Positions 9,723 to 18,249 of a DNA stretch of 64,000 nucleotides are shown here, one piece after another; positions within the stretch are counted from its first letter, which is position 1; each line of letters begins with the position of its first letter. A program made the position numbers and the translations under genes. Where the stretch lies: assembly GCF_007860095.1 (NCBI RefSeq), contig NZ_SJPT01000006.1, positions 62,001 through 126,000 on the forward strand. Direction: 5' to 3'. This stretch comes from Novipirellula galeiformis (GTDB lineage: Bacteria > Planctomycetota > Planctomycetia > Pirellulales > Pirellulaceae). The notes under the pieces are model-generated. The model made no database searches, was not told the DNA's origin, and worked only from the letters and a program-made list of their open reading frames with translations.

Positions 9723-10085
9723 TGAAAATTCACGACAAGCGGATTTGCCGCGTCTGTAAGTCTAAAAGCTTTCGTGAGATTCGTGTAGTGCGGCCAAATC
9801 GTAACCTAACTTTCAGTGACGGGGGAGTTTTGACGTTAGATGGCTCCGAGCACACCCGCCAGAGTGTGGGAAGCGCAACACACGGTTGTCTTTGTGCAAC
9901 ATCAAGGTGTTGCTTTTGGGAAACACGCTGGACTCGGAAAACGAACCCACTATTTCACCTAACCTATTCACTGACAACGGTTTGCCATGATTTATGCGAC
10001 GCCCAGCCTAACCGCTGGTACCGATACTGCTTGGTTCCTCCCCCACGTTACCGACGTTTTTGACACGGGTGCCGAGGAGAGCTTG
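9723..10085. other. Divergent intergenic region between glnE and the sigma factor
   Basis: This 363 bp stretch separates the divergent glnE and primary sigma factor genes and should carry both promoters. Short frames inside it (for example one ending at 10063) give Cys/Arg-rich translations without any fold, so I call it non-coding. Confidence 0.5.
9971..9998 (+). promoter_or_regulatory. Weak candidate promoter of the sigma factor gene
   Basis: CTGACA at 9971-9976 and TATGCG at 9993-9998 are separated by 16 bp and lie about 90 bp before the chosen start of the sigma factor gene. The -35 box matches the consensus at five of six positions, but the -10 box is poor. This is a weak call. Confidence 0.2.
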
Positions 10086-11675
<1,590 letters not shown>

Positions 11676-16679: not shown

Positions 16680-16722
16680 AAAAAAAAGAGCCGGCGAAGC
16701 GGATAAACCGTTTCGCCGACTC
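16680..16722 (-). terminator. Rho-independent terminator of the TPR/alpha-CTD gene
   Basis: Read on the minus strand, a 15 bp stem (GAGTCGGCGAAACGG / CCGCTTCGCCGGCTC) with a 5 nt loop is followed by eight T residues. The two non-Watson-Crick positions are wobble or near-wobble pairs. It lies 34 bp after the stop of the gene at 16756-18087. Confidence 0.85.
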
Positions 16723-16755
16723 TGATGATCATCCATTTTGGAAAGCGAGCCTGGC

Positions 16756-18087
16756 TCAGTCGCCACGCAATTTCAAACCGAGGTCGGTCAATTTCTCGCG
16801 GACTTCGTTCAAGCTGGTGACCCCGAAGTTCTTGCACTCGAGCATCTCGTCGCCCGTCTTGCGAACCAACTCACCGATGGAGTTGAGCTGCAAACGCGCC
16901 ATGCACTTGCGTGCTCGAACCGAAAGGTTCAAGTCGGAGATTGGGCGTTCGAGCAACGCTTGCTCGTCTGGCGACATGTGACTGGTGTCGATCGGCGGAT
17001 CGTTGCTCTTCTTTTCGTGAGCGAATTGTCCCAGCGAGAGCCCTTTGCTGGTCAGCATTTCGCGGATCTCGACCAAGCTCGTTTCGCCAAAGTTCTTGCT
17101 GCTAAGCAGCTCCGCTTCGCTGGTGCGAGTGAGGTCACCGATGGTGTCGATGCCCATTTTCTGCAAGCAGTTTCGGCTCCGAACGCTCAATTCGAAGTTG
17201 GCCACGGGCAGGTTCAGCGTTTGTGCCAAACGATCGTTGCGGCGCTGTGCTTCTTCGTCGTAGAGCAGGTTGCCGGTCGCTGCGGCATCCTTCAAATACA
17301 AATTGGTTTGCGGATGATCGGGATACGACTCGAGGATACGACGATAACACGCTTGGGCGCGATCGAATTGATTGTTGTCCTCGTAGATCAAGCCGAGGTT
17401 GATCAGGGCACCGATGCCGGTTGGGAATGCCTTGGCGGCACGCTCGTACAACTTCAGCGCTTCGACATCGTTGCCGAGTCGGTCGTTTTCGAGTGCCAGT
17501 CCAAACAGTGCCCCGGCGTGGTTCTCATCGGCGTTAACGGCGCGTTGGTACAACGCCAACGCCTCTTCCAAACGTCCGCCGACCGCAGAAACGGTGGCGG
17601 CACGTTGGTACATGTATTCCGAGGTTTGCTCTGCAGGCCCGAAGATATTGTCGAGGATTTCGAGCGATTTTTCGGTGCGACCCGCGTAGCGATGTGCCTC
17701 GGCGATACGGATATTGCACTCGTCGGCGTTGTAACCGGACGTTTGCGCCTGCAGGTAAACCGGAATCGCCTCTTCGTAGCGGCTCAGCTCAAATTGGGCG
17801 CGAGCTTGATAGAACAACGCCATCGCGCTGCCGTCGGCATTGCCAAGAATTTCCAGCGCAGCTTTGAACTTGCCGAGCAAGAACAAACAAACGCCCATTT
17901 TGGTTTTCGTAGCGGGGCTAAGTGCCTCGTCCGCTTCCATCTCGTTTACGGCGTCGCGAAGTTCAGCAAAATGGCCGTAATTCTCAGTGATCGCAGAACG
18001 AATGGCTGCGACATCGGATGGCCCAAACGAATTGTTTGCCAGAACCATCTCTTTCAAATCGAGCACATCGAGTTCGATATCACTCAT
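16756..18087 (-). CDS. TPR protein with two C-terminal RNA polymerase alpha-CTD-like domains
   Basis: The 443-residue protein has a helical N-terminal segment, then TPR-like helical repeats (about 60-265, including the pair GDVEALKLYERA-type and NQFDRAQACYRRI), then two copies of the fold found at the C-terminus of the RNA polymerase alpha subunit (about 292-354 and 379-443). Copy 1 has ELSVRSRNCL and SKNFGETSLVEI; copy 2 has NLSVRARKCM and CKNFGVTSLNEV. The E. coli DNA-binding Arg265 and Cys269 equivalents are present in both copies (Arg303/Cys307 and Arg391/Cys395), and Asn268 in copy 1 only. TPRs bind proteins and alpha-CTD domains bind DNA or activators, so a role in transcription is a reasonable inference, but unproven. 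AGGAGA precedes the ATG; a tRNA-Thr gene lies 88 bp upstream on the same strand. Confidence 0.85.
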   Translation of the reverse strand: MSDIELDVLDLKEMVLANNSFGPSDVAAIRSAITENYGHFAELRDAVNEMEADEALSPATKTKMGVCLFLLGKFKAALEILGNADGSAMALFYQARAQFELSRYEEAIPVYLQAQTSGYNADECNIRIAEAHRYAGRTEKSLEILDNIFGPAEQTSEYMYQRAATVSAVGGRLEEALALYQRAVNADENHAGALFGLALENDRLGNDVEALKLYERAAKAFPTGIGALINLGLIYEDNNQFDRAQACYRRILESYPDHPQTNLYLKDAAATGNLLYDEEAQRRNDRLAQTLNLPVANFELSVRSRNCLQKMGIDTIGDLTRTSEAELLSSKNFGETSLVEIREMLTSKGLSLGQFAHEKKSNDPPIDTSHMSPDEQALLERPISDLNLSVRARKCMARLQLNSIGELVRKTGDEMLECKNFGVTSLNEVREKLTDLGLKLRGD

Positions 18088-18175: not shown

Positions 18176-18249
18176 AGCCAGCGGCGGGATTTGAACCCGC
18201 AACCCTCGCATTACGAATGCGATGCTCTGCCAATTGAAGCTACGCTGGC
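18176..18249 (-). tRNA. tRNA-Thr (anticodon CGT)
   Basis: On the minus strand the sequence folds into a standard cloverleaf: acceptor stem GCCAGCG/CGCTGGC, a D arm, anticodon arm TCGCA-TTCGTAA-TGCGA with anticodon CGT (reads ACG, threonine), a 5 nt variable loop and a T arm GCGGG-TTCAAAT-CCCGC. The discriminator base is T and no CCA is encoded. It lies upstream of the TPR/alpha-CTD gene on the same strand. Confidence 0.95.

Follow-up and report, generated by a model that had tools for sequence, protein, structure and literature searches.

Activation through the C-terminal domain of the RNA polymerase alpha subunit (alpha-CTD) is usually ascribed to RNA polymerase as such. A gene of Novipirellula galeiformis raises the question of what such domains may do elsewhere: it encodes tetratricopeptide (TPR) repeats followed by two tandem domains of the alpha-CTD type. 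We asked what these domains are, how widely and how strictly they are kept, and what role is the most plausible for the protein. The gene lies in a window (the whole stretch of DNA that was analysed) of 64,000 nucleotides, in which we find the following features:

18176 to 18249, minus strand: tRNA-Thr(CGT), just upstream of the gene
16756 to 18087, minus strand: gene of the TPR-tandem-alpha-CTD protein, an open reading frame with ATG start (443 amino acids plus stop)
17266 to 17916, minus strand: TPR superhelix, residues 58-274 (Pfam TPR models; AlphaFold2 mean pLDDT 89.7)
17020 to 17235, minus strand: alpha-CTD copy 1, residues 285-356, with R303, R305, N306 and C307 at E. coli positions 265, 267, 268 and 269
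16978 to 17019, minus strand: linker between the copies, residues 357-370, poorly conserved and with a dip in pLDDT
16759 to 16977, minus strand: alpha-CTD copy 2, residues 371-443, with R391, R393, K394 and C395 at the same four positions
16687 to 16723, minus strand: intrinsic terminator hairpin and U-run, directly downstream of the gene (-25.9 kcal/mol, z -4.97)

The order of domains proposed in the first-pass annotation, TPR repeats and then two alpha-CTD-like domains, is confirmed by Pfam. The whole protein scores 144.6 bits with RNA_pol_A_CTD (PF03118, curated cut-off 23.8, E 7.2e-43) over two stretches, each copy alone still reaches 76.5-78.6 bits, and TPR_2 gives 69.3 bits (cut-off 27), with many other TPR models also above their cut-offs. 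A sequence search of the PDB matched alpha-CTD chains, for example 1coo (2.9e-13), 1lb2 (4.3e-13) and 3gfk (4e-12). Because of these E-values, and because of the conservation across Planctomycetota described below, a chance match or a misread frame is ruled out. The protein is not a misannotated or split rpoA either: a 331-residue rpoA reading frame with its own CTD stands elsewhere in the genome (L002). The score with the rpoA model TIGR02027 is 128.3 bits, contributed by the CTD region, where 227.8 are required, and the protein likewise stays below the thresholds of NF005841 (PRK07758, a small hypothetical protein; 43.2 against 115 bits) and of BREX PglW (NF033442; 29.7 against 990 bits). 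No model of the alpha N-terminal domain (alpha-NTD) is among the best 25 of the 30 Pfam families matched. The terminator suspected behind the gene is real as well; it is absent from the output of a consensus terminator scan, though its hairpin folds stably before the U-run.

An AlphaFold2 model built on 65 aligned rows (mean pLDDT 89.7, pTM 0.61) predicts paired helices as far as residue 274 or so, followed by two four-helix domains; because of the pTM value, the placing of the domains relative to each other in the model is uncertain. As read from the model, six pairs of helices, closed by a capping helix, would make up the TPR superhelix. The predicted helices are 302-310, 316-320, 324-328 and 335-347 in copy 1 and 390-398, 404-407, 412-416 and 423-435 in copy 2. 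Shifted by 38 and 126, respectively, they fall at about 264-272, 278-282, 286-290 and 297-309, which we take to be the helix limits of the E. coli alpha-CTD, so that by a comparison of helix limits the predicted helices of both copies coincide with those of alpha-CTD. A VIA search with the whole model returned a list filled by TPR proteins, and the alpha-CTD part was thus not probed by that search. In the last TPR repeat, N230 and E236 are invariant in the 65 aligned rows and D237 is nearly so; these positions presumably line the groove, as in other TPR proteins. Taken as a whole, the groove is weakly more conserved (p 0.026). Compared with the TPR scaffolds Ctr9 and O-GlcNAc transferase (TPR part), the identity is 16%, the repeats are generic and we see no sign of the same partners.

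The conservation of the architecture across Planctomycetota, which had been suggested as a check, is borne out. As we read the table, a match at E<=4.4e-32 is present in 369 of 392 genomes of the phylum. At E<=1e-10 there are matches in 384 genomes and none in the other 8; 15 of the 384 fall between 2.6e-11 and 1.8e-15, a level that the tail of RpoA alone could give. All 217 good genomes (>=90% complete, <=5% contaminated) match at 1e-10, with at most three in the weak group (G031, G143 and G301, by rounded values). For 40 genomes drawn at >=95% completeness we looked for an RpoA-type frame and for adjacent pairs of alpha-CTD matches: the former was present in 40/40, and a second frame with two adjacent matches in 39/40, G088 having one. 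Among the nearer relatives, 56 of 60 have a match at E<=1.6e-121 (in one case divided between two contigs), and the remaining four (G393, G399, G426 and G442) have matches of RpoA level only; G393 and G442 are drafts of many contigs with 97% completeness. The three genome sets (392, 40 and 60) overlap.

Both copies are present in 101 of the 103 family loci that we read, a number in which at least one gene is counted twice (G339, as L050 and L094). The exceptions are L030, which is cut by a contig end, and L133, where copy 2 is lost. The latter belongs to family f46, in which copy 2 is degenerate in three further loci (L131, L132 and L135) and copy 1 scores fully; a shorter TPR part with both copies kept is seen in L093, L123-L125 and L134, and L121 is truncated where its contig stops. 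A scan of genome contigs with patterns from the window protein, which reaches near relatives only, gave 39 loci, all from Planctomycetota by title. No plasmid record out of 72,556 was covered at 80% (76 match in part), and no INPHARED phage out of 50,697 (15 match in part). Judged by these matches, nearly all of the sampled Planctomycetota have a member of the family.

Next, we compared the residues that would face DNA. We used redundancy-reduced rows in E. coli numbering (49 of copy 1, 54 of copy 2 and 21 of RpoA of Planctomycetota) and a list of alpha-CTD contacts from the E. coli literature, including R265, N268, C269, G296, S299 and E302, which we assume to hold here. The DNA face was defined as nine contact positions; the core positions are our own list. 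With the CTD of RpoA the copies share the sequence family, the order and limits of the helices in the model and, in copy 1 of the window, the equivalents of all six residues named; copy 2 has Lys at 268 and keeps the other five. Across the family, R265 is found in 49/49 rows of copy 1, 52/54 of copy 2 and 21/21 of RpoA. The corresponding counts are 45/49, 36/54 and 20/21 for C269, 49/49, 49/54 and 21/21 for G296, 49/49, 48/54 and 12/21 for S299, and 48/49, 54/54 and 21/21 for E302. Thus the DNA-contact Arg and Cys claimed for both copies are there (R303/C307 and R391/C395), and a lack of conservation of the Arg, Cys and Gly residues, named beforehand as evidence against alpha-CTD, did not occur: the Arg265 face is retained in both copies.

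The Asn/Lys difference at position 268, noted for the window protein, holds for the whole family, with Asn in 46/49 rows of copy 1 and Lys (36) or Arg (11) in 47/54 of copy 2, the RpoA rows having Asn in 21/21. Position 267 is Arg in 46/49 and 50/54 rows of the two copies and mostly Ser in RpoA (11/21). In these alignments the family is set apart from RpoA by Arg267 in both copies together with Lys/Arg268 in copy 2, and also by its lack of an alpha-NTD match and by the tandem, TPR-borne arrangement; T298 of the TPR-borne copies is shared with RpoA of Planctomycetota. The mean entropy of the DNA face is 0.24 (copy 1), 0.78 (copy 2) and 0.34 bits (RpoA), compared with 1.50, 1.88 and 1.65 bits at the other non-core positions. 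Of 20,000 random draws, 0, 1 and 0, respectively, were as low as the DNA face (copy 2, p 5e-5). Some residues of the face, namely Asn294, Gly296 and Ser299, may owe their conservation to the fold. The linker block 361-375 has a mean entropy of 3.13.

Domains of the copy 2 type also occur on viral contigs, an observation that is new here. Searched with the family profile, IMG/VR gave seven loci with alpha-CTD-type domains; a further profile scan added two viral contigs, and two scans with single proteins brought up no contig beyond those already found. Four viral versions bear the marks of copy 2; all have R265, R267 and K268, and the motif reads VR[AC]RK[CA]:

L142, 4043-4270: identical 75-residue protein in L141 and L142, on contigs of 101 and 205 kb
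L143, 4025-4267: 80-residue protein, version of L143 and L144
L160, 504-884: short open frame on a 6.3-kb contig
L161, 3542-4204: C-terminus of a 220-residue open frame on a 120-kb contig

A large terminase subunit (phrog_675) is encoded nearby in L142 (E 1.8e-55), L143 (4.5e-54) and L160 (1.6e-55). Since both the terminases and the neighbouring frames are alike, these three are, as judged from their genes, related phages, and separate captures need not be assumed. For L161, none of the 4 neighbouring frames has a PHROG match, so we take its viral nature from the IMG/VR listing; its alpha-CTD protein itself matches (residues 54-111) a PHROG family without known function. In 294 Planctomycetota genomes, the terminase of L142 has just two relatives, both weak (30-35% identity), and for this reason the host is read from the ancestry of the domain alone. 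The simplest reading would be that copy 2 passed from planctomycete hosts to the viruses, with its DNA face preserved. Single alpha-CTD-like domains without the copy 2 marks are seen on the viral contigs L145 (3911-4315) and L146 and L147 (3638-4219). A precedent for interference with alpha is given, in PMC7552054, by T4 ModA, ModB and Alt and the phiKMV-like Rac; as described there, these phage proteins modify alpha or cause its cleavage, whereas the viral genes found here encode an alpha-CTD of the copy 2 type.

Is the pair a recent duplicate of RpoA? We do not favour this, because copy 1, copy 2 and the CTD of RpoA form separate groups in both of our trees, which are built on short alignments. 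In the second tree (73 rows thinned from 182, 62 columns), from which 17 long or degenerate rows including the viral L145 and L146 had been removed by hand beforehand, the groups are copy 1 (98/92), copy 2 joined by the four viral rows (99/90) and RpoA together with the small proteins described below (87/89). In the first tree (115 rows thinned from 197, 62 columns), which includes the hand-dropped rows and whose bootstrap had not settled, they are copy 1 with L146 (96/92), copy 2 with L142/L143 (95/86) and RpoA with the small proteins and L145 (92/87). For the second tree, the AU test rejects none of three other arrangements of the viral rows: next to copy 1 (p 0.28), next to RpoA (p 0.08) or all in one clade (p 0.34).

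There are four alpha-CTD matches above the cut-off in N. galeiformis: two belong to the TPR-alpha-CTD protein, rpoA has the third, and the fourth is in a small protein of 90 residues with a gene of its own (L004 1471-1740; G000 C1, 1245745-1246014, plus strand). The small protein keeps R265, N268 and C269 in a single alpha-CTD which, like the TPR-borne copies, has no alpha-NTD in frame; it is set apart from them by Thr267 combined with Asn268, and it groups with the CTD of RpoA and with neither copy. Similar proteins of G121 (L117) and G167 (L116) group with it on the RpoA side, and it looks like a later offshoot of RpoA, as far as the trees go. An alpha-CTD-like segment is also present in each of two BREX PglW kinases (L118 1485-5738, minus strand, and L120 1466-5815, plus strand; 1655 and 1458 bits with NF033442), which are different proteins sharing this stretch, and a 795-residue frame in G019 (L119 2674-5058) has three such segments N-terminally. 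A literature search, with subscription papers and preprints outside its scope, gave no account of the TPR-tandem-alpha-CTD architecture among the matches listed. As regards essentiality, rpoA, TPR and tetratricopeptide are not mentioned in the main text of an insertion study of Planctopirus limnophila (PMC10632474).

What, then, may the protein do? Its architecture, its presence in most Planctomycetota genomes examined and the lone copy 2 domains of some viruses point to an undescribed core factor of gene control. We give about even chances to the view that the protein serves Planctomycetota as a core transcription factor acting in trans, with its alpha-CTDs as a detached pair, because of the identity of the domains, the low entropy of the DNA face with R265 and E302 retained, the distribution over the phylum and the copy 2 domains on viral contigs. 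From the sequences we infer that it would bind DNA and contact RNA polymerase. Upstream of promoters, the Arg265 equivalent of each copy would enter the minor groove of A/T-rich DNA. Copy 1, acidic at 261, could sit beside sigma region 4 (Arg596, Arg603), and copy 2, more basic through Lys/Arg268, would grip DNA. A partner peptide, perhaps of RNA polymerase, might bind in the TPR groove, whose last repeat has the invariant Asn and the acidic residues; in this way the protein would bring extra alpha-CTDs to promoters or compete with those of RpoA. Viruses with copy 2 might use the domain to compete for, or to redirect, the system.

Several observations bear on the details. The proposed contact of copy 1 with sigma is suggested by position 261, which is acidic in 97% of copy 1 (E 91%, D 6%; 87 distinct rows), and by Arg596 and Arg603, which are kept in both of the sigma-70 paralogues that we read, out of five matches to E. 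coli RpoD in the genome. On the other hand, both paralogues have Gln instead of Arg599, and an acidic 261 is also found in RpoA of the phylum (D 45%, E 27%), which argues against a specialisation of copy 1; RpoA of N. galeiformis has Arg there, and copy 2 is mostly non-acidic (N 54%). Two DNA contacts would not always be needed, because copy 2 is degenerate or lost in f46. Against the transcription factor as such speak the weak overall signal of the TPR groove, the possible role in the fold of the three face residues named above, and the four relatives with RpoA-level matches only, two of them at 97% completeness.

Alternatively, the protein could be an architectural or adaptor DNA-binder of A/T-rich minor grooves along the chromosome, with TPR repeats that recruit or bridge proteins and with indirect effects on transcription. 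A DNA face retained without alpha-NTD, a presence in nearly every genome sampled and the net positive copy 2 (mean charge +1.83) agree with this, but copy 1 is not basic (-0.74) and keeps an acidic 261 that DNA binding alone does not need, and we consider the idea rather unlikely.

In E. coli the alpha-CTD serves as a hub for other proteins, so one can also imagine a decoy or hub for alpha-CTD-binding proteins such as activators and NusA-like factors, with no role on DNA; the viral copies could then be decoys. Against this speak the 287 and 273 determinants, protein-contact faces in E. coli: their mean entropies (copy 1, 1.59 and 1.68; copy 2, 1.80 and 2.02) lie near the values of the other non-core positions, while the DNA face is far lower. 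Copy 1 does show some conservation of the 261 determinant (1.05), unlike copy 2 (1.83), which leaves room for a protein contact of copy 1. As a full account of the protein we find the hub improbable.

Finally, we looked at the gene neighbourhood in 60 loci (39 from the contig scan, 20 from a second set and the window), several of which are too short to show a neighbour. The tRNA-Thr(CGT) gene, whose position had been taken as a hint, is indeed kept among the relatives of the window (within 1.1 kb upstream in 37/60 loci, 30 on the same and 7 on the opposite strand), but it says little on function, since in other lineages the gene precedes ruvA-ruvB or spoIID-tgt-yajC. In 39/60 loci tgt is found further downstream, on the strand of the gene; ruvA follows directly in 9/60 (in L092 at 2.8 kb), and a SpoIID gene and secDF, the latter name being our own reading of one frame, occur in 8/60 each. 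L087 has ruvA-ruvB-queH-spoIID-tgt-yajC in a row (families confirmed by Pfam) and then a secDF match, and L079 appears to have the same order. A factor of DNA repair, recombination or tRNA modification, to which this order before ruvA-ruvB, queH and tgt could point, is very improbable, because the row is a general housekeeping cluster in bacteria and varies in order, in N. galeiformis no tgt lies in the roughly 6 kb that follow the gene, and the domains are alpha-CTDs by sequence. The neighbourhood gives no particular pointer to transcription either, and this counts against the trans-acting factor that we prefer. A sigma-70 (RpoD-type) gene lies in the window about 5 kb away (9987-11675, plus strand). 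In summary, the first-pass interpretation stands with regard to alpha-CTD homology, the Arg265 face of both copies, their constant difference and the conservation in Planctomycetota; the imitation of, or competition with, alpha-CTD that it proposed is a putative role, and the tRNA neighbour is of little help on function.

With some reserve, since we lean somewhat against it, we may extend the transcription factor reading: core transcription in Planctomycetota would include a second set of alpha-CTDs, independent of the polymerase, with a sigma-facing and a DNA-gripping copy, and viruses would have taken the DNA-gripping copy as a small gene to capture this system. The viral copy 2 genes are an independent handle, being one small domain to express and assay. 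A nearly phylum-wide pair of alpha-CTDs acting in trans, with a strongly constrained DNA face, would give a major phylum a transcription factor of the core type.
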